From positions 682,001-746,000 of the forward strand of contig NZ_JANIDY010000001.1 of NCBI RefSeq assembly GCF_026385525.1: 64,000 nt of DNA, read 5' to 3'. Shown here piece by piece: positions 20,430-64,000 of the stretch. Under the pieces are notes generated by a model. The model had not been told where the DNA came from. It saw only the letters and a list, made by a program, of their open reading frames with translations, and did not search any database. Positions within the stretch are counted from its first letter, which is position 1. Each line of letters begins with the position of its first letter. Made by a program: the position numbers and the translations under genes. The DNA is from Bombella pluederhausensis. GTDB taxonomy: Bacteria > Pseudomonadota > Alphaproteobacteria > Acetobacterales > Acetobacteraceae.

Positions 20430-20468
20430 AAAGACCCTTCTTCCCAAAATCAGGAAGCAAGGGTCTTT
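20430..20468. terminator. Bidirectional terminator between thiL and the GNAT-like gene
   Basis: AAAGACCCTT pairs with AAGGGTCTTT (20430-20439 and 20459-20468), with an inner TTCC/GGAA pair and T/A tracts on both sides. It overlaps the last codons of the convergent minus-strand gene. Confidence 0.85.
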
Positions 20469-21628
20469 TCATAAAGACGATGTGTTTTGTGAGGGTGTGG
20501 CACGAGCGATTCAGCTAGATTACGCATGCCTGTATCGTTTTCCAGCACCCAGCCCAGTTCGACCCATTTGTAAGGCAGTGTATGGCCACGGCGCATGAGC
20601 TCAACAATGGCGAGTGAAGGTAAGAGTGATCCCAGCATGGTGCCACGCAGCTTGCTTGATACGCCAAGCAGAATGACGCGGGCAGAACGGAACTTATGCG
20701 TTGCTAGCCGGTAGCCCAGACGCATCCAGCCAAGAGGAGAGGGGGCACCACCCAAGTCACCGGCAATATCGTAAAGATTGGGTAGCACCATCGCCATGGC
20801 TACGGGCTCACCATTCTGGTCAATCTGTACATAGTGTTCAGGACGTAGAAGGGGCTTGATCTGCTCGATCATGGCCGACATTTCATAATCCTGCATGGGT
20901 ACAAAATTATATTTATGCGACCACGCATCATTATAAAGCTTGCGTAGAACTTCACCCTGCGCCGTTATTTCTTTCTTCGAGAGATCACGGGTCGTGATGC
21001 TGCTGAGACGTCCTTCGCCCAGCCTGAGATTGCCGGGGACCTTGAACTTATTTTCAGTATTTTCATCAAGCTCCAGTCGGTAGCTCAGCAGATCCTGTGC
21101 TTTTTCGTAACCGGATTGACGGATAAGCTCATCTAGTCCTTTTGGATGCCATGGAATGGCGATCATAGGGGCAGAAAGCTGCCCTTCCACCATCGTCCCA
21201 GTCTCCGCATTTCCACTGAGGGTTACTGGGCCACGCACCTTAGAAATCTGCCGTTTTTTCAGCCAATCTTCAGCAGCCTGTAGAAGTGCGGAAACAATTG
21301 GTAATTCAGGCAATGCATCTAGCGCCCCAAACTGACCGATCACTTCCTGCCAGTGCTCAATTGCCTTAAGATCGACTATAGCAGCGATTCGCCCAACAGG
21401 CCGATCACCACGCCAGGCGAGGAAGTACTGAATTTCCGCATGGCGAAAAACAGGCGCTTCCTTGGGGTTGAGCAGATGTCTCTGCTCCATGTCTAAGGGG
21501 GGAACGAACCCGTCCATTCCCTTATAGATATGGCGTGGAAGTGTGATAAAACGACGTAGATCTCCCCGTGTTGTAACGGGACGAACATCGACCTCGGCAG
21601 ACTGAGAGTTTGGCGCTTCACATTGCAT
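20450..21628 (-). CDS. GNAT-like N-acyltransferase, candidate ceramide synthase
   Basis: A 392-residue protein with the two-lobed look of a large GNAT (YghO-like) acyltransferase. The N lobe includes VPPLDMEQRHLLNPKEAPVF, followed by FLAWRGDRPVGRIAAI. The C lobe includes PVAMAMVLPNLYDIAGDLGG and ends with YKWVELGWVLENDTGMRNL. No membrane segment or signal peptide is evident. In Caulobacter, a GNAT-type protein (bCerS) acylates the sphingoid base. The pairing here with a divergent short-chain reductase, and a serine palmitoyltransferase operon elsewhere in the window, makes that a reasonable guess, but it is inference. No strong ribosome site precedes the chosen ATG. Confidence 0.7.
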   Translation of the reverse strand: MQCEAPNSQSAEVDVRPVTTRGDLRRFITLPRHIYKGMDGFVPPLDMEQRHLLNPKEAPVFRHAEIQYFLAWRGDRPVGRIAAIVDLKAIEHWQEVIGQFGALDALPELPIVSALLQAAEDWLKKRQISKVRGPVTLSGNAETGTMVEGQLSAPMIAIPWHPKGLDELIRQSGYEKAQDLLSYRLELDENTENKFKVPGNLRLGEGRLSSITTRDLSKKEITAQGEVLRKLYNDAWSHKYNFVPMQDYEMSAMIEQIKPLLRPEHYVQIDQNGEPVAMAMVLPNLYDIAGDLGGAPSPLGWMRLGYRLATHKFRSARVILLGVSSKLRGTMLGSLLPSLAIVELMRRGHTLPYKWVELGWVLENDTGMRNLAESLVPHPHKTHRLYEKTLAS

Positions 21629-21688
21629 AGCAATGGCTATACTCGTACACGGGCTTTCCCGCTAGAGGGCAAAAAAGAAAGGGGCTTC

Positions 21689-22504
21689 ATGTCCAGACCA
21701 GAAAAGAACACAACGACGCTCCGGCATCACATCCTCATAACTGGCGCTTCCAGTGGCATCGGAGCCGCCTTGGCGGAGTATTATGCTCGCCCTGGTGTTC
21801 ATCTGACATTGTGGGGCAGGAGTGAAGAAAGACTGGAAAAAACGGCGACTGCTGCGCGTACGAAAGGTGCCAGTGTCGATACACTCAGCATTGACCTGAC
21901 TCAGGCCGAAGTGGCTCTGAAGGAGCTTATCAAGGCGGATGATAAGCTGGCTGTTGATATTCTGATTCTTTCTGCTGGTATGGCTGATATTCGTCCTCAT
22001 AATGCTTTGGCAGAATCAGCTGATACGGCTCTCAAGATGTCGATGGTCAATTTTGCCACACCTGTTGCCATGGCGACTGAGATGGCTAACCGTATGGCTG
22101 CCCGCCGGCATGGCCGTATCGGGATCATGGGGTCTGTCGCATCTTTCCATGATCTGCCTCTGGCAACGGTTTACAGCGGTTCCAAAGCAGGGTTGGGGCG
22201 CTTTAGCACGGCACTTCAGGCGGCTATGACGCCGTATAATGTCCGTGTCTGTCTCATTGCTCCGGGTTTCATTGATACGCCCATGAGCCAGCGACTGGAT
22301 GGTGAACAGGCCTTTCTGGTGCCAGTGGAAAAGGCCGCTCGTAAAATTGCCCGTAGCATCAATTCAGGTAGAAGCGTGTTGGTGTTCCCATGGGTGTTCC
22401 AGCTGACCCGGCTGTTGGAAATGGCGTTGCCGCGGCCTATTGCACACAGAATTCTGCGCCGTTTGGATGTTATGCAGCACCCTGAAGGAGAGGGGGGGGC
22501 GTAA
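21689..22504 (+). CDS. Short-chain dehydrogenase/reductase, KDSR-like candidate
   Basis: A 271-residue classical SDR. The cofactor motif is TGASSGIG (18-25), and the catalytic Ser149, Tyr162 and Lys166 are in GSVAS and YSGSK. The C terminus has a hydrophobic/amphipathic stretch (VFPWVFQLTRLLEMALPRP) that resembles the membrane-associated tail of 3-ketodihydrosphingosine reductases. The ATG at 21689 has AAAGGGG before it. It diverges from the GNAT-like gene with only about 60 bases between them. A role in reducing a 3-keto sphingoid base or ceramide is an inference; general SDR function is firm. Confidence 0.75.
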   Translation: MSRPEKNTTTLRHHILITGASSGIGAALAEYYARPGVHLTLWGRSEERLEKTATAARTKGASVDTLSIDLTQAEVALKELIKADDKLAVDILILSAGMADIRPHNALAESADTALKMSMVNFATPVAMATEMANRMAARRHGRIGIMGSVASFHDLPLATVYSGSKAGLGRFSTALQAAMTPYNVRVCLIAPGFIDTPMSQRLDGEQAFLVPVEKAARKIARSINSGRSVLVFPWVFQLTRLLEMALPRPIAHRILRRLDVMQHPEGEGGA

Positions 22505-54023: not shown

Positions 54024-55007
54024 TCAGACAAACCACATTTTTGATTTGCCCGTCTTTTTTTTAAAGTCTTCACATTCTTTATCAAAGTCTTTTCTTACCT
54101 TATCCATATACCAATAAAATTTTTCTTCCTTTGCCAACCAATCATTTTTTGCGATCCCATTTTTCTTGATATAGTCCTGCGTGTGATCAAAAACTTCACC
54201 CCATCTAGGACGATATTTTTCCATGACACTTTTGCGACCTTCTTTTTCTTCACGATCAAGGTCAACCGCATCATTATAAATCTGCTTGAAAGTCTGTTCT
54301 CTAAGACTGCTTATAGAGACCATCGCTTTCATAGCCAGTTCATCATTTCTCTCAACTGCTTCATTCCACAATAAAGAGGCTCTATTCCAGAACCCTCTCA
54401 GGAACATTTCTTCATACACTGACAGATAAATATAGCCATCTACCGGTTCTATGAACTTAGGCTCCTCCTCATAGAACCTCTTATGCAGCATGTCATCAAT
54501 ATCAGGAAGATCAGTTTTTTTAAGACGGACACCTGAACGATGTTCATAAACTGGCACAACAGCACCATTTGAATGATAATAATAAGCCATGTTTAATTTA
54601 CGACCAAAGGTGTCCTCTTGTGTTTCCTGAAAGTCAATAAACGCTTTCAGCATACCAATGACACGCATATAGCCAAAACGCTGACAGTCATGAATAATCT
54701 TTTCACGCTTTTCCAGAATCAGTTCACGTTCCAGACGAGCGCATTTGGCATCAGATTCATCAATTTGACGGTCTTTGAGCATAATGGTGTCAGAATAACT
54801 GTTACGGCGTTCAACTTCCTTGACGAGAACTTTTTTCCACTCATCAGAGGCAACTTGCAGTCCTTCTCTGTAGGCATCAGCAACAGCTTTATTCAGATGT
54901 TTTACATTACGTCTTTCAATCAGATAATCAACGACAGAACTGGCACCCTCATACAGTGCCCCACCCAGACCTTCAACTAAGGCTCCACCAAAATATTCAA
55001 TAGCCAT
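54024..55007 (-). CDS. Unrecognised 327-residue protein
   Basis: I do not recognise this family. The first 30 residues are glycine-rich (GGALVEGLGGALYEGASSVV), which could be a membrane-interacting glycine zipper. Residues about 60-110 are highly charged and probably coiled coil (LKDRQIDESDAKCARLEREL). The rest is helical and aromatic with many Trp, Tyr and Lys, and there is no signal peptide. The start is firm: GGAGG lies before ATG 55007. Base composition is lower in GC than the surrounding housekeeping genes, which suggests horizontal arrival. It stands alone on this strand; the small genes at 53.8 and 55.1 kb are on the other. Confidence 0.75.
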   Translation of the reverse strand: MAIEYFGGALVEGLGGALYEGASSVVDYLIERRNVKHLNKAVADAYREGLQVASDEWKKVLVKEVERRNSYSDTIMLKDRQIDESDAKCARLERELILEKREKIIHDCQRFGYMRVIGMLKAFIDFQETQEDTFGRKLNMAYYYHSNGAVVPVYEHRSGVRLKKTDLPDIDDMLHKRFYEEEPKFIEPVDGYIYLSVYEEMFLRGFWNRASLLWNEAVERNDELAMKAMVSISSLREQTFKQIYNDAVDLDREEKEGRKSVMEKYRPRWGEVFDHTQDYIKKNGIAKNDWLAKEEKFYWYMDKVRKDFDKECEDFKKKTGKSKMWFV

Positions 55008-55148
55008 TTTTCTAACCTCCACACCAAGAAAACAGGTTTATAATGGAGAGTGTTCTGTCGCTCTGTCTATACGGTAACGGTTCATTTTCCAATTTTCACA
55101 CTTTTTTAATTTAGCCTCATACAAGAAGGTCGCTCTAGGATTAAGACA

Positions 55149-57263: not shown

Positions 57264-59012
57264 TTGACCGAGGCCAATCAGAAACCCAATTCCACGCTTT
57301 CCATTACGCCCAGCCGTTCAGGGATTGAACGCCGTTATGGAGACTTCCCCAGCTTCCCCGCTGCCCTTGATTATGCGGCACAGGGCAAGAGTGGCTTCAA
57401 TATCTATTCTGGGCGCGGCACCCTACTGGAAGCCCTCCCGTACAGCAAACTGCGCCAACAGGCGCACGCTACGGCACGCCGCCTGCTTGGCCTAGGTCTC
57501 AAAACAGGTGACCGGGTTGCTGTTATTGCCGAAAGTGATGGCGATTTTGCTCGTATTTTCTTCGGCTGTCAGTATGCGGGCCTCGTCCCTGCTCCCCTAC
57601 CCTTGCCGGTCGCCTTTGGGGGCAAAGAAGGCTATATCAACACGCTAAGGGGTATGATCACCAGTGCGGATGCTCGTGCTGTTGTCATACCGGATGTCAT
57701 AAGCGGGTGGACAGCTGATATTGTCGCTGACTTCCCACTACTCTTTGGCGGATCTCCCTCCGAATTGATGGCCCTTGAGGAAAAAGATATTCCTCTCCCT
57801 GAAATCGATGGAGATGCTCTTTCATACCTGCAGTTTTCCTCTGGCAGTACCCGTTTCCCTATGGGGATCAGCGTCACGCAGAGGTCCGGTATGGCCAATG
57901 CGCATGCTATCGCCAAATATGGATTGCAAGTCTATCCCAGCAGCGATGAAAGAGACGATCGCTGTGTATCTTGGTTGCCACTCTACCACGATATGGGCCT
58001 TGTCGGGTTCTTCCTGACTCCCATGACCTGTCAGCTCTCGGTAGACCTACTCCCTACACGTGAGTTCGCCCGCCGCCCTCATGTATGGCTGGAACTTATC
58101 GCCCGCAACAAAGGGACCATGTCTTACAGCCCATCCTTTGGGTATGAGCTCTGTGCCCGCCGTGGGGTGCGAGAGGAGCTTGACCTCTCCTCATGGCGCA
58201 TTGCTGGCATTGGCGGGGATATGATTCGTCCCCACATCATCCAGAATTTTGCCACTGTATTCGAGCAGTGCGGTTTCAGTGGCAAAGCCTTTGTTGCAAG
58301 CTACGGCATGGCAGAATCAACGCTAGCTATCAGCTTCGCTCCATTGGATGTGGGTCTGCGGGTAGATACAATTGATCTTGCTGCCATGGAACAGAAAGAC
58401 TATGCCAGCCCTGCTGATGAGACGACCCAAGCAGCTCGTGATTTCGTGCTGTGCGGTGTATGTCTGCCAGAACATCAAATTGAGGTCCGTAGTCCGTCTG
58501 GGCGCGTTCTGAAAGAACGTGAAGTCGGCACTGTCTATGTACGTGGTCCCAGCCTGATGTCCGGCTACTTTAACCGCCCTGAGGAAACAGCCAAGGTCCT
58601 GTCCGCCGATGGATGGTTGAATACTGGTGACATCGGTTACATGTTGGATCAGCAGATCGTCATCACTGGCCGTGCAAAAGACCTCATCATCATCAATGCC
58701 CGAAACATCTGGCCGCAAGATCTTGAATGGGCTGCTGAGCACGAAATTGCTTCTCTGCGCTCACGCGATGTTGCTGTATTTTCGGTTGATGAAAATGAAG
58801 GGGAAAAAGTCGTTGCTCTGGTTCAGTGTCGCTTCACTGAAGAAGAACCACGCACCAAGCTGAAAAACGATCTGGTTGCCCTCTTTCGCCGTTTGCATAG
58901 CATCGATGTTGATGTCGTTCTTGTCCCGCCACGCTCCCTTCCACAGACCTCCTCTGGAAAGCTGACGCGTGCACGCGCCAAGACCATGTATCTTAACGGA
59001 GAGTTTACGTAA
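57264..59012 (+). CDS. Fatty acyl-AMP ligase/acyl-ACP synthetase of the sphingolipid operon
   Basis: A 582-residue adenylating enzyme of the FAAL type. It has SYLQFSSGSTRFPMG (ATP-binding loop), WLPLYHDMGLVGFFL, ASYGMAESTLA and the C-terminal DWLNTGDIGY-type segment with RAKDLIIINARNIWPQDLE. It probably activates fatty acids and loads them on the small carrier protein encoded after it, giving acyl-ACP for serine palmitoyltransferase. Caulobacter has such a pair (AasR/AcpR) for ceramide synthesis; transfer of that role is inferred. The start is TTG with GGAG before it, the only available codon ahead of the conserved part. Confidence 0.85.
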   Translation: MTEANQKPNSTLSITPSRSGIERRYGDFPSFPAALDYAAQGKSGFNIYSGRGTLLEALPYSKLRQQAHATARRLLGLGLKTGDRVAVIAESDGDFARIFFGCQYAGLVPAPLPLPVAFGGKEGYINTLRGMITSADARAVVIPDVISGWTADIVADFPLLFGGSPSELMALEEKDIPLPEIDGDALSYLQFSSGSTRFPMGISVTQRSGMANAHAIAKYGLQVYPSSDERDDRCVSWLPLYHDMGLVGFFLTPMTCQLSVDLLPTREFARRPHVWLELIARNKGTMSYSPSFGYELCARRGVREELDLSSWRIAGIGGDMIRPHIIQNFATVFEQCGFSGKAFVASYGMAESTLAISFAPLDVGLRVDTIDLAAMEQKDYASPADETTQAARDFVLCGVCLPEHQIEVRSPSGRVLKEREVGTVYVRGPSLMSGYFNRPEETAKVLSADGWLNTGDIGYMLDQQIVITGRAKDLIIINARNIWPQDLEWAAEHEIASLRSRDVAVFSVDENEGEKVVALVQCRFTEEEPRTKLKNDLVALFRRLHSIDVDVVLVPPRSLPQTSSGKLTRARAKTMYLNGEFT

Positions 59013-59060: not shown

Positions 59061-59089
59061 TTCTTCGCTTGGTCACAGAGGGACAAGAC

Positions 59090-59344
59090 ATGACAGACAG
59101 TGTTTCCGATATCTCCCATATGATTCTCCAGAAACTTCTGGAAAATCCAAAGGTGCCGCGTGACATCTCTGGAGAAAGCCGCATCGTTGAAGATCTGGCC
59201 TTTGACAGTCTTGCCGTCATGAACTTTGTGATGGAAATTGAAGATACACTTGATGTCTCCGTTCCTCTCGATAAACTGGCAGACATCCGTACAATTGATG
59301 ATCTGGCAGCCTGCTTGCATGCCATCAAGGCGGAGCAGGTATGA
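59090..59344 (+). CDS. Acyl carrier protein of the sphingolipid operon
   Basis: An 84-residue acyl carrier protein. Ser40 in DLAFDSLAVMNFVMEIED is the phosphopantetheine attachment site. It is clearly different from the fatty-acid-synthase ACP in that it lacks the typical DSLDTVE run. I chose the ATG at 59090, with GAGGGA before it, over an in-frame GTG or TTG 21 bases upstream. Its stop overlaps the start of the serine palmitoyltransferase gene (ATGA). It is probably the AcpR equivalent that hands the acyl group to serine palmitoyltransferase. Confidence 0.9.
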   Translation: MTDSVSDISHMILQKLLENPKVPRDISGESRIVEDLAFDSLAVMNFVMEIEDTLDVSVPLDKLADIRTIDDLAACLHAIKAEQV

Positions 59345-60540
59345 GCGCAGGACTTTTTGACAAATACGCTACGTTAAGGGGGAACTATGAGTCCCTCATG
59401 GCAACAAGTCCCAGAAACCCTTTTGGAGTTGTTATTGAACGCCCTCTCTCTGCTACCGTAGGTATCATCGAGGGGCGTGAAACACTCCTGTTTGGGACCA
59501 ACAACTATCTGGGTCTTAGCCAATCAGAAGCAGCACGTGATGCCGCTATCCGTACTGCCGAGAATATGGGTGTAGGCACAACCGGATCACGTATCGCCAA
59601 TGGCACATTTGGCCTGCATCAAAAACTGGAAAAAGCTCTGGCAGACGTGTTTCAAAGAAAACACGCCATGATTTTCTCCACTGGCTACCAAGCCAACTTG
59701 GGCACAATTTCGGCTCTAGTCAATAAAGATGACATCCTCTTTCTTGATGCTGACAGTCATGCCTCCATTTACGATGGTGCCCGCCTTTCAGGCGCACAGG
59801 TAATTCGCTTCCGTCATAACGATCCGGCTGACCTCGAGAAGCGTGTTGCCCGAACCGACAAAGCAACAGGTGCTCGCCTCATCATTGCCGAAGGCATTTA
59901 TTCCATGACAGGGAATATTGCCCCTCTCAATGAATTTGTTGAGGTTAAGAAGCGCCATAACATTCCTCTGATGGTTGATGAGGCCCATTCTTTTGGCGTG
60001 CTGGGTGCCCATGGGCGTGGTGTCGCCGAACTTCAGGACTGTGAAAAAGATATCGACTTTATCGTTGGTACATTTTCCAAATCCTTGGGAACAGTGGGCG
60101 GTTACTGCGTAACTGATCATGATGAAATTGATCTGATGCGCCTCTGCTCTCGCCCTTATATGTTCACGGCCTCCCTTCCCCCCGAAATCATCGCGGCTAC
60201 ACTTGCGGCTCTGGAGGAAATCAAAGACAGGCCGGAACTGCGCCAGAAACTACAGGACAATGCAGCCCGTCTGCATGGTGGTTTCAAGTCTGTTGGGTTG
60301 AACACGAGCAACTTCATTTCTCCGGTCATTGCCGTGACCTTAGAAGATGTCCCACAGGCCATAGCATTCTGGAATGCCCTTCTGGATGCTGGCGTTTATG
60401 TCAATCTTTCCCTACCTCCTGCAACACCGGACAATCGTCCTCTACTGCGCTGCTCCGTGATGGCCGCTCACTCTGCGGAAGAAATCGACCGTGCTGTGGA
60501 CGCATTTGGTAAAATTGCCAAAAAACTGAATCTCACCTGA
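59341..60540 (+). CDS. spt: Serine palmitoyltransferase
   Basis: A soluble 399-residue alpha-oxoamine synthase that condenses serine with an acyl thioester to give a 3-keto sphingoid base. Features: NNYLGLSQSEAARDAAI, GTTGSRIANGTFGLHQKLE, MVDEAHSFGVLGAHGRG (His216 region) and the cofactor lysine Lys247 in TFSKSLGTVGGY. The family also includes 2-amino-3-ketobutyrate ligase and 8-amino-7-oxononanoate synthase; context (dedicated ACP and acyl-AMP ligase before it, lipid kinase after it) strongly favours serine palmitoyltransferase. It overlaps the ACP gene by 4 bases. Confidence 0.9.
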   Translation: MSAGLFDKYATLRGNYESLMATSPRNPFGVVIERPLSATVGIIEGRETLLFGTNNYLGLSQSEAARDAAIRTAENMGVGTTGSRIANGTFGLHQKLEKALADVFQRKHAMIFSTGYQANLGTISALVNKDDILFLDADSHASIYDGARLSGAQVIRFRHNDPADLEKRVARTDKATGARLIIAEGIYSMTGNIAPLNEFVEVKKRHNIPLMVDEAHSFGVLGAHGRGVAELQDCEKDIDFIVGTFSKSLGTVGGYCVTDHDEIDLMRLCSRPYMFTASLPPEIIAATLAALEEIKDRPELRQKLQDNAARLHGGFKSVGLNTSNFISPVIAVTLEDVPQAIAFWNALLDAGVYVNLSLPPATPDNRPLLRCSVMAAHSAEEIDRAVDAFGKIAKKLNLT

Positions 60541-60615: not shown

Positions 60616-61557
60616 TCAGGCATCTGACCTGAAACGCAATCTTCGGGCCCTCCAAAGAAATAAAGGTAATGTCAGAACCGGGTGTTTTCGTTCAAAATTG
60701 GAAACTTGAATGACCTGCCCCGTATGACGCTGTATCTTCCATAGAAGATACGAAATACCATCTGTAAACGTAAAGGCTGCTTTTATCAGACGCACTACAT
60801 TCAAAGGCTTTCCGGTAGCAGCAACATGCTGCCAACGTCTTATAGCTTTAACGCGAGCCTTCTCTGTTAAGACAGGATACAGGCAGGCATTTTCATCCTC
60901 CTGATAAGGGATAGATGCCTGTTCCCATGCGTGTAGAAGAAGCTCCCTATATCGTTCTTCCCGGCCTGCCAGTAAATTACGGCTTCTACCTTTTTTCTCA
61001 ACGCGCAATTCTGCCGCATACGTCTTGGTAAACAACTCATGCCAGTATGTTGCAGCCTGTCCCTTCTCGGGGCCAAGGAGAGCAGCCCAGCATGAAGCTG
61101 TCACAACACACTGACTGACAGCCTTAAGAATATGATCGGCGCTTTTCCCATCTCGTACCCAAACCATTCGGACTGGCTGACAAAACCGGGCCCAAATCGT
61201 TGTATCAAGCGTAAATAACGTACTGCGCTTCAGAAACTGACCGATGGAGAGGAAGGCAACCTTGGCCCGAAGAACACGTGTGCCTACCTCATGTTCCATA
61301 TAATAGACGTTGGGTGGCAGAATATGATTTGCCCAGCGCGCAAAACCGTTCCCGCTCAAGCTGACAGGACGATCCGTGATAACGTAAAAATCCAGTATCC
61401 CATCGAAATCCACATCCCGCAAAACCGAGCCATAAAACAGTATGCCCAGCGGATGGGTTTTCAACGTCCCGGCAATTGCTCCGGCAAAATCGGACACTTC
61501 ATCAGGAACAGAAGTCGTCAGCTCCTTTATAAGAAGCTGGTTGATGGCCTCAGACAT
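60616..61557 (-). CDS. Nucleotidyltransferase-like protein linked to lipid kinase
   Basis: A 313-residue soluble protein of uncertain family. Residues 39-62 (ILFYGSVLRDVDFDG then ILDFYVITD) resemble the polymerase-beta nucleotidyltransferase fingerprint, GS followed by a metal-binding Asp pair; however, the second Asp position appears as Tyr58, so activity is uncertain. The remainder is helical with basic stretches and no signal peptide. Its start overlaps the stop of the lipid kinase by 8 bases, so the two are translated together. A role in attaching a head group to a sphingolipid or in lipid phosphate turnover is a guess from position. Confidence 0.65.
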   Translation of the reverse strand: MSEAINQLLIKELTTSVPDEVSDFAGAIAGTLKTHPLGILFYGSVLRDVDFDGILDFYVITDRPVSLSGNGFARWANHILPPNVYYMEHEVGTRVLRAKVAFLSIGQFLKRSTLFTLDTTIWARFCQPVRMVWVRDGKSADHILKAVSQCVVTASCWAALLGPEKGQAATYWHELFTKTYAAELRVEKKGRSRNLLAGREERYRELLLHAWEQASIPYQEDENACLYPVLTEKARVKAIRRWQHVAATGKPLNVVRLIKAAFTFTDGISYLLWKIQRHTGQVIQVSNFERKHPVLTLPLFLWRARRLRFRSDA

Positions 61558-62518
61558 GCAGGAACCTGAAGGCTGGTCCCTTTTCCAGCATTACCCGACC
61601 ACTTGTTGAAGCCGGAAAGACCTCACCATCCAACACAAACTCACTCTCGGTTTCAAGCAACATGTTTCCAACTACATCGCTGATATAGTCATCATGCGCT
61701 CTCAACCACTCCGGTGCCCGCCCCCTGAGGAGGTTATAGCAAGCCCTAGGCAGGTCCTTCGGACAGGACCGTACATTCAGAAAATGAAAGCCTTCCTTAT
61801 GAGCTTCATCACTCCAGAAAGGCCAGATACCATGAGAAAGCTTCTCTAACCCTGTCACCATATAAAGGAAGCTTCTTCCAATATTCTTCACAGCATTTGA
61901 GCCATCGGCATCTTTCATCGACCAGCTCAGACCGCTGCCATACATCCATGACTGACGACTACGCCGAAACAGAAGATTCACGAAACTACTAAAAAGCGTG
62001 AAAAACACTGCCAGATCATGCGGGGCAAATTTCAGAACCGTTGGGGAGTGGGCAATCCTTACGGCACGGGCATACCCAGCACAACCTCCAAACATACCCA
62101 ATACGGACTCCCGATCATCATCGGGCCAGGATAATCTAATCGGAGTGCGGACCTTACTTTTAAGCCCTGCCGGACGCATAATTCGATCAATGGCATCTTC
62201 ACCCTGCAAACCGAACCCTACATCTCCGGCAATCAGATTAGTATTGCCAGCGGGAAGAATAGCCACAGCTGGCAAGGGGCCATCACAATACGTGTTGGCG
62301 ATAGCCGTCAGACAAGCGCTGACCGTCCCATCCCCCCCACTGATGACAATGAAATCCACCCCTTTACGTTTCAGTTCAGACAGATGTTCTGGAAGATGAC
62401 TATCATTCAAAGCAGAAACACAGAAATCCCCCATCTTCCGCTGTGCCATGCGCACAAACCGGCCTTTATCCTGCGTATTTTTGCGACTATTGGGATTATG
62501 TATCAAGGCTGGCTGCAC
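61550..62518 (-). CDS. Diacylglycerol kinase-like lipid kinase, candidate ceramide kinase
   Basis: A 322-residue lipid kinase of the diacylglycerol/sphingosine kinase fold. The nucleotide site ISGGDGTV is at about residues 60-66, followed by AILPAGNTNLIAGDVGF, and the C-terminal domain carries VLDGEVFPA (the family's second conserved acidic site). Bacterial ceramide kinases such as Caulobacter CpgB share this fold; with the neighbouring serine palmitoyltransferase, this is a reasonable inference, but diacylglycerol or undecaprenol could be the substrate. It is the first gene of a two-gene minus-strand unit with the nucleotidyltransferase-like gene. Confidence 0.8.
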   Translation of the reverse strand: MQPALIHNPNSRKNTQDKGRFVRMAQRKMGDFCVSALNDSHLPEHLSELKRKGVDFIVISGGDGTVSACLTAIANTYCDGPLPAVAILPAGNTNLIAGDVGFGLQGEDAIDRIMRPAGLKSKVRTPIRLSWPDDDRESVLGMFGGCAGYARAVRIAHSPTVLKFAPHDLAVFFTLFSSFVNLLFRRSRQSWMYGSGLSWSMKDADGSNAVKNIGRSFLYMVTGLEKLSHGIWPFWSDEAHKEGFHFLNVRSCPKDLPRACYNLLRGRAPEWLRAHDDYISDVVGNMLLETESEFVLDGEVFPASTSGRVMLEKGPAFRFLHV

Positions 62519-62681
62519 GGTCTTTACTAATCTCTGTATCTATCCATCACAAACCCGCCCAGAAACAATAAAACCCTGCTGTTTCACAAGCTGGTCGAAC
62601 CCCTTTAACATGGCTATGCTAAGGGAGCCAGCAGGGAGTTTCCCTGAAAAGACCGTTTCCCATCATGATCATGGTGCCATA

Positions 62682-63599
62682 ATGCCTTCCGCTCTGTCCG
62701 CCACCTCTTTTTCCCGGCGTGACCCCTCCGTTTGTCTGGCTCACATGTCAGACCCTCATCTACCACCTCCCGCTATTGCATGGTCCTCTTTTCTCAACAA
62801 AAGATTGCTCAGCCGTATTTTATGGCGCAGCAAACGCCGTCACGTCTTGCGTCCTGATGTCACCGCACAACTGATTGAAAACATTGCAACACACAAAGAG
62901 GTTTCCGCTCTCCTCATCAGCGGGGACATCACCAATTTCGGCACCAGAGAGGAATATGAACAAGCTGCCAGCTGGCTAGGTAAACTGCCCATCTCTCCTA
63001 TAGTCGTACCTGGCAACCACGACTTCATGGCACCCATCACATATGGAAACAGCCTTGCCCTATGGGAGAACTGGGCCGAAGGTAGCTTCCCTTTTGTCCG
63101 TTGTTTCGGAAAAGTCGCCGTAATCGGTCTCAATTCTGCACTGCCTACTCTGCCCTTTACCGCCTATGGCTATATTGGCAAGAAACAACGCCAGAAACTG
63201 GCAAAGCTTCTTGCAGAGCTGGGTAAAGAGGGATACTGCCGGGTAGTCATGCTTCATCACCCCCCTCATAAAGGGCTGCTTCCTTACAGAAAATCCCTTA
63301 TAGACACAGCCGCCCTTGCTAGAGTTCTACAGTCTCATGGGGCAGAGCTTGTTCTACACGGGCATTCCCATAATGCTACTCTGACAACGGTGGAAGGCAC
63401 TGACATTCCTCTCCTTGGCATCAGTGCAGCGGCCATGGACAGCCATCACCTTGAACGTAAGGCAGGATGGAACCATTTAACGTTCACACCACATGAAGAT
63501 GGCTGGCAGATAAAACTGCTACGCAAAGATTATACAGGAACTGTTTTTTCCCGCATGAAGTGGCTCTCCACAACCCCAACAAGGCAGGCTGAATGTTGA
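62682..63599 (+). CDS. Calcineurin-like metallophosphoesterase
   Basis: A 305-residue two-metal phosphoesterase. Motifs are in order: AHMSDPHL (D-x-H), LLISGDITNFG (GD at 81-82), VVPGNHDF (GNHD at 111-114), MLHHPPH and VLHGHSHN (GHxH). It may be a phosphohydrolase of nucleotides or lipids. The start is uncertain: I used the ATG at 62682, whose product starts 20 residues before the first motif; the frame is open to 62448 but those residues are not family-like. It overlaps the lptF start by 7 bases, which suggests the two are co-expressed. Confidence 0.82.
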   Translation: MPSALSATSFSRRDPSVCLAHMSDPHLPPPAIAWSSFLNKRLLSRILWRSKRRHVLRPDVTAQLIENIATHKEVSALLISGDITNFGTREEYEQAASWLGKLPISPIVVPGNHDFMAPITYGNSLALWENWAEGSFPFVRCFGKVAVIGLNSALPTLPFTAYGYIGKKQRQKLAKLLAELGKEGYCRVVMLHHPPHKGLLPYRKSLIDTAALARVLQSHGAELVLHGHSHNATLTTVEGTDIPLLGISAAAMDSHHLERKAGWNHLTFTPHEDGWQIKLLRKDYTGTVFSRMKWLSTTPTRQAEC

Positions 63600-64000
63600 T
63601 TCGAAGCTCCCTGCCAACTCTGGATCGTTATCTGCTGCGTCAGATGGTTCCGCCCTTTGCTATCGCTCTGGGCACCATGCTGATCGCTCTGCTGCTGGAG
63701 CGGTTACTAACACTCTTTAACCACCTTGCCAGCAGTGGCAGCTCTGTTGCCACACTCATCACTCTCCTGAGTGATCTCTTACCCCATTATATGGGGCTGG
63801 CCCTTCCAGCGGCGCTCTGCATTGCTATCTTCATGACGGTAAACCGCATGAGCGAGCATAACGAAATTGACGTCCTATGTGCCGGTCATATTTCCCTGCT
63901 CCGCATCAGCCAGCCTTATATCAAAGTTGGGGCCATTCTAGCGGTTCTTAGCGTACTGCTTTATGGCTATATTCAGCCAATTGCACGTTATGATTATCGT
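63593..64000 (+). CDS. lptF: Lipopolysaccharide export permease LptF, 3' end missing
   Basis: Inner-membrane part of the LptB2FG transporter that moves lipopolysaccharide toward the outer membrane. The visible 136 residues start MLIRSSLPTLDRYLLRQMV, with hydrophobic segments FAIALGTMLIALLLERLL and ALPAALCIAIFMTV, and the family motif NRMSEHNEIDVLCAGHISLLRISQP. The frame is open at the window edge. LptF is preferred over LptG because of the position of the NRMSEHNEIDVL segment, but without the C-terminal half the choice is not certain. Confidence 0.85.
   Translation, partial: MLIRSSLPTLDRYLLRQMVPPFAIALGTMLIALLLERLLTLFNHLASSGSSVATLITLLSDLLPHYMGLALPAALCIAIFMTVNRMSEHNEIDVLCAGHISLLRISQPYIKVGAILAVLSVLLYGYIQPIARYDYR

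Follow-up and report, generated by a model that had tools for sequence, protein, structure and literature searches.

The window, meaning the whole stretch of 64,000 nucleotides that was analysed, contains a pair of divergently oriented genes and, at some distance from them, an spt operon. The pair is arranged as follows:

20450 to 21628, minus strand: GNAT-family N-acyltransferase of 392 amino acids, proposed to be a ceramide synthase of the bCerS type (open reading frame and a weak Pfam GNAT match)
21629 to 21688, no strand: spacer of 60 bp between the divergent starts, taken from the sequence with the SDR start set at the ATG at 21689
21689 to 22504, plus strand: classical SDR, proposed to be a 3-keto-sphingolipid reductase that replaces CerR (adh_short, 128 bits)

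Both open reading frames are present as the divergent neighbours that a sequence-only reading of this DNA had described, with 60 bp between their starts. The TTG listed as the start of the SDR reading frame, at 21623, is probably wrong, because the alignment of close relatives begins at the ATG at 21689 (MSRPE). The same reading had placed the spt operon about 35 kb away; the operon is real and begins 34.8 kb from the SDR:

57264 to 59012, plus strand: fatty acyl-AMP ligase (FAAL, aasR-like; NF006624, 870 bits, cut-off 600)
59069 to 59344, plus strand: acyl carrier protein (ACP, acpR-like; PP-binding, 41 bits)
59341 to 60540, plus strand: serine palmitoyltransferase (spt; NF047599, 600 bits, cut-off 500)
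60616 to 61557, minus strand: conserved cluster gene with no Pfam or NCBIfam match, which recurs beside spt in relatives
61550 to 62518, minus strand: lipid kinase (DAGK_cat, 55 bits), which recurs in the clusters of relatives
62448 to 63599, plus strand: metallophosphoesterase (Metallophos, 59 bits), whose true start is later than listed and which recurs in the clusters of relatives
63593 to 64000, plus strand: start of an LptF/LptG permease (Pfam; locus L082) that crosses the window end

Beyond the window end, the cluster continues with a second LptF/LptG permease, an FA_hydroxylase and a MobA-like NTP transferase (L082, G000:C1:736000-755900). Upstream of the operon and of an alanine racemase gene lies an open reading frame of 332 amino acids (54024-55022) for which neither Pfam nor NCBIfam gives a match at E 0.01.

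The published gene order in Caulobacter is aasR-cerR-acpR-spt (CC_1165 to CC_1162); the same region holds the ceramide synthase CC_1154, the nucleotidyltransferase-like CC_1153 that carries the adjacent number, the ceramide kinase CC_1160, and LptF2 and LptG2 (PMC11324152). The ceramide synthase of Caulobacter crescentus, bCerS or CerS (CC_1154), is needed for ceramide and is described as a GNAT or N-acyltransferase (PMC11324152, PMC11087976). CerR (CC_1164) is NDUFA9-like and periplasmic, and its electron source is described as unknown (PMC11087976). By analogy, the DAGK_cat kinase of the window is a candidate counterpart of CC_1160.

In relatives, GNAT homologues have an FA_hydroxylase or an NTP-transferase gene as neighbour, frequently along with FAAL, CerR, ACP and spt. 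Some members of the window's family have the GNAT adjoining the hydroxylase gene (L072-L077, L079) and the FAAL adjoining a CerR-like Epimerase-type SDR (L072-L076, L078, L081). In the window's own cluster the hydroxylase and NTP-transferase genes are adjacent, without an intervening GNAT, and CerR is absent from between the FAAL and the ACP. A CerR displaced to another site was rejected, as the window's genome gave no match at E 1e-12, and no second GNAT appears in that genome at E 1e-10. In a sample of the class, a GNAT match is present in 41 of 289 genomes, and 37 of the 40 loci drawn from it contain at least one other panel gene (mainly permease genes in L127, L148 and L149); the remaining loci are a window-type pair (L139), a 3.1-kb contig with the GNAT only (L142) and a weak match with no panel gene (L150). 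Among the best 80 of at least 584 named loci, many of them short and none of them from Caulobacter, 42 have CerR and 5 have a window-type SDR; no locus has both, and 33 lack the two. Most of the cluster lies in one region in Pseudomonas asuensis (L194), as is likewise described for P. luteola (PMC11324152). A GNAT of the same family also occurs, with two LptF/LptG permeases, a fatty acyl-AMP ligase, an ACP and an SPT-like gene, on plasmid pDCB2 of Diaphorobacter sp. JS3051 (L244, NZ_CP065408.1 45620-64735), which is typed as conjugative IncP; this is a sphingolipid-type cluster on a plasmid that is probably self-transmissible.

The window GNAT gives a weak match to Pfam Acetyltransf_1 (24.1 bits, cut-off 20.7), and its structure model (mean pLDDT 91.9) matches tandem GNAT structures, so that domain search and model both indicate a GNAT-type acyltransferase fold. 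It is homologous to the GNATs of sphingolipid clusters, with 18 invariant columns in an alignment of 53 sequences. Its identity to the cluster-borne homologues is 29-39%, and its substrate could therefore differ. The phylogeny called for by the sequence-only reading was run against these cluster homologues and places the protein in a subclade of the sphingolipid-cluster GNAT family. The Caulobacter enzyme, known here by description, resembles the window GNAT in family and in the gene neighbourhood of its relatives; it lies in its cluster, whereas the window GNAT lies outside the cluster and in a separate subclade. Sequence searches of the PDB returned nothing specific, the SDR query retrieving general SDRs. 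In Roseomonas plasmid records (H2, H4-H7), the bCerS-type GNAT is annotated as 'dATP pyrophosphohydrolase' in several cases and as 'hypothetical protein' in others.

The SDR is a classical, adh_short-type protein with the nucleotide-binding glycine motif TGASSGIG and the catalytic residues N121, S149, Y162 and K166, as would be required of a 3-ketosphinganine reductase. The CerR counterparts in relatives are Epimerase-type SDRs of the spt cluster, in line with the earlier view that CerR is of a different SDR type. The two share the wider SDR superfamily and the proposed 3-keto reduction; however, CerR is NDUFA9-like and periplasmic, whereas the window SDR shows no signal or membrane segment by hydropathy. 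The 'KDSR-like hydrophobic tail' ascribed to the SDR from its sequence holds in part: the model (pLDDT 89.7) ends in two short C-terminal helices, but there is no obvious transmembrane span, since the highest 19-residue hydropathy is only 1.34. The best PDB matches of the model are HSD17B13 and 11beta-HSD1, with TM scores on the query of up to 0.83 and 0.76. Both are membrane-associated reductases, and at about 22-24% identity the likeness is one of general SDR fold that by itself carries no functional inference. The Bacteroides 3-ketosphinganine reductase BT_0972 and the eukaryotic KDSR/TSC10, compared here by description, are classical SDRs with the Ser-Tyr-Lys residues and glycine motif, as is the window SDR, and 'KDSR-like' is used as a statement on the likely mechanism only. 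BT_0972 is reported as NADPH-dependent, as having needed detergent and as not clustered with SPT (PMC9278070); it stands apart from SPT, whereas the window SDR is paired with an acyltransferase.

Across the family, survey thresholds of E 1e-50 for the GNAT and E 1e-120 for spt gave 142 genomes with both, 7 with the GNAT only, none with spt only and 248 with neither, in a set of 397 genomes from one family that includes many close relatives, each genome being counted singly. The GNAT is thus present in 149 genomes and spt in 142, and every genome with spt also has the GNAT, the genomic association expected of a bCerS. With related genomes entered one by one, a Fisher value for these counts does not give a fair probability. 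The sequence-only reading had named the pair in genomes lacking spt as a finding that would count against it. An spt match is present in 103 of the 110 genomes with a window-type GNAT, among them two with partial matches below the cut-off (G411 and G612). Of the seven without a match, four carry a divergent SPT-like gene next to the SDR (G010, G056, G105 and G502), one (G571) has an spt split over two frames and one (G417) is represented by a contig of 3.9 kb whose end lies shortly after the SDR; in G647 the pair is present and no SPT was found, with only 31-35% matches. Free occurrence of the pair without SPT is therefore rejected, as it lacks any SPT-like gene in at most one or two of the 110 genomes (G647, and G417 at its contig edge). 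In the single-contig genome G411 (L236, L237), spt, the lipid kinase, one permease, the GNAT and the SDR each run over two frames; joint decay of the pair and spt was set aside as an explanation, sequencing error being indistinguishable from decay.

In the genomes compared, the SDR and CerR exclude each other. The two were looked for in 119 of the 149 GNAT-bearing family genomes (the other 30 all have the window-type GNAT), with matches of at least 212 bits for CerR and at least 195 bits for the SDR. CerR was found in 37 genomes and the window-type SDR in 79; none has both and 3 have neither, so that 116 of the 119 have exactly one. A first set of 39 genomes gave 8 with CerR, 30 with the SDR and 1 with neither, and the further 80 gave 29, 49 and 2, respectively; the best CerR-like match among the first 30 SDR genomes reaches 96 bits. 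The three with neither are a genome with a CerR cut at a contig edge (G519), G411 with its SDR in two frames and one with a related SDR in the spt cluster (G021). The exchange can also be seen within genera: under genus code g53, CerR is found in G415, G464 and G534 and the SDR in G502, and under g56, CerR is found in G466 and G536 and the SDR in G056 and G417.

The two genes of the pair are neighbours in 78 of the 79 genomes that carry both, an arrangement that is not due to chance. In the first set all 30 are divergent, with gaps of about 28-544 bp; in the second, 48 of 49 are neighbours by coordinates, with gaps of 63-282 bp, and the sole exception (G408) has them on two contigs. Two genomes (G500 and G532) each have two copies of the window-type GNAT, on the same contig and far apart.

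Such constancy bears on the possibility that the GNAT is a ceramide synthase while the SDR acts elsewhere and some other enzyme reduces the keto group. The NCBIfam matches of the SDR, which are unspecific and below their cut-offs, would leave room for this, the third best being to DprE2, which reduces a different lipid-linked ketone (107 bits against a cut-off of 250). However, the adjacency to the GNAT, the presence of exactly one of SDR and CerR in nearly every genome compared, and the position of the SDR between the GNAT and the SPT-like gene in G010, G056, G105 and G502 make a separate role for the SDR unlikely.

Comparable gene sets occur with divergent SPT-like enzymes. In G056 the order is SPT-like gene, SDR and GNAT, beside kinase, phosphoesterase, permease, hydroxylase and NTP-transferase genes; ACP and CerR are both missing from this locus, which has only a 22% match to the FAAL. 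The SPT-like proteins of G056 and G010 fall below every curated cut-off and score best with BioF. In Acidisoma sp. PAMC 29798, an SPT-like gene, the SDR and the GNAT lie with a sterol desaturase family gene on a plasmid of 204,534 bases, typed as non-mobilizable in PLSDB. Distant GNAT homologues (27-32% identity; L091-L102 without L101) have a divergent SPT-like enzyme next to them in 10 of 11 loci, L095 being the exception, and three loci have a related SDR about 4-9 kb away. Other Alphaproteobacteria likewise have related SDRs in the vicinity of SPT-like and GNAT genes (L141, L143, L175, L188, L227, L228), and in the SDR tree the pair-type and related SDRs stand apart from background SDRs (support 97). 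A tentative proposal, held with somewhat less than even confidence, is that Alphaproteobacteria possess a second, self-contained ceramide route, in which a divergent SPT-like enzyme works with a classical SDR and a GNAT of the bCerS type, with no FAAL, ACP or CerR adjacent, and which has passed between lineages as one module (plasmid-borne in Acidisoma); its SDR and GNAT would have joined the standard spt operon in the window's relatives, with keto reduction in the cytoplasm, and not in the periplasm as is proposed for Caulobacter, and possibly before N-acylation, as in eukaryotes.

The same enzymes could instead be taken to mean that the pair serves another aminolipid pathway, acting on the product of the divergent SPT-like enzyme, perhaps derived from alanine or glycine, and that it has met the standard spt through ancestry only. 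The BioF-like scores of the SPT-like proteins and the company kept by the distant GNAT homologues are in line with such a role. It is nevertheless very unlikely given the standard spt match in 103 of 110 genomes and the module of G056, which has as neighbours the usual cluster's genes for a kinase, a permease, a hydroxylase and an NTP transferase. Moreover, in the 30 of these 103 genomes that were searched, no second GNAT (E 1e-10) and no CerR was found, and the ceramide steps would on this reading be left without known enzymes.

With regard to the origin of the pair, the GNAT and spt trees disagree, which suggests an arrival from outside and not a move out of the cluster. In the spt trees (54 rows of at least 300 amino acids and a subset of 32, both quick trees), G100 is the neighbour of the window clade (support 99) and G071 that of G001 (92); G100 and G071 both have CerR and a cluster-borne GNAT. 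A single spt clade of pair carriers is rejected by the AU test (p 0.0004). The careful GNAT tree, which covers 37 of 89 rows, unites the GNATs of the window clade with those of G001, G056, G010 and G105 in a single clade (100/100), and G056 and G001 are joined in both the GNAT and the SDR trees. Uniting the pair-GNAT clade with the cluster-borne GNATs of the family is rejected (p 0.0008; with added relatives, p 0.003 for four and 0.011 for five), as is grouping the G001 GNAT with the GNATs of its spt relatives (p 2e-30), in tests whose groups were set by gene content, with relatives joined to some of them after the trees had been seen. The idea that the GNAT arose by a 35-kb move of the bCerS native to the cluster is disfavoured by these trees, and so is a single early relocation followed by transfers. 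The pair was probably acquired and not relocated, the simplest history being at least two entries with loss of CerR and of the old bCerS; the trees support few events. Beyond what the sequence-only reading had proposed, the pair thus looks to have been brought in and to replace bCerS as well as CerR.

Taken as a whole, the GNAT and the SDR very probably catalyse the last two steps in the synthesis of the membrane lipid ceramide, with the SDR in the cytoplasm and the pair acquired in place of bCerS and CerR. The GNAT is best read as the ceramide synthase and the SDR as the replacement for the periplasmic CerR, parts of one explanation that is judged highly probable on comparative grounds. The earlier proposal of a ceramide synthase and a non-CerR reductase that complete a pathway split over two loci is in this way supported by co-occurrence, by phylogeny and by the exclusion between SDR and CerR. 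Spt would make the sphingoid base and the GNAT would add the second acyl chain; the divergent SDR would reduce the 3-keto group in an NADPH-dependent reaction in the cytoplasm, so that the pair would convert the Spt product to dihydroceramide. Modification and export of this lipid would fall to the remainder of the spt cluster. The pair would have entered together and displaced the cluster's own bCerS and CerR, both of which are gone. We infer both reactions, their substrates, the use of NADPH, the cytoplasmic site and the history of acquisition from comparisons of this kind. The order of acylation and reduction in bacteria is disputed (PMC11087976). A cytoplasmic SDR would permit reduction before acylation, and acylation first, followed by cytoplasmic reduction, fits equally.

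Replacement of bCerS and CerR by non-homologous proteins has been named as a possibility for Cloacimonadota that have spt without a nearby bCerS or CerR (PMC11334938). The present case differs in that a specific replacement of CerR is proposed, in another group, with an acyltransferase that is a homologue of bCerS. Among acetic acid bacteria, the genus Acetobacter is reported to contain ceramide (PMC8268314). A literature search conducted largely at the level of titles and passages found no ceramide synthase or ceramide reductase named for acetic acid bacteria and no paper on the genes of the GNAT-SDR pair. A cytoplasmic, NADPH-dependent SDR would avoid the electron-source problem of the periplasmic CerR, and the apparent swap of CerR for a probably cytoplasmic SDR with its acyltransferase would make the disputed order of steps testable by gene deletions. 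Furthermore, searches that demand spt, bCerS and CerR together would miss producers of this kind.
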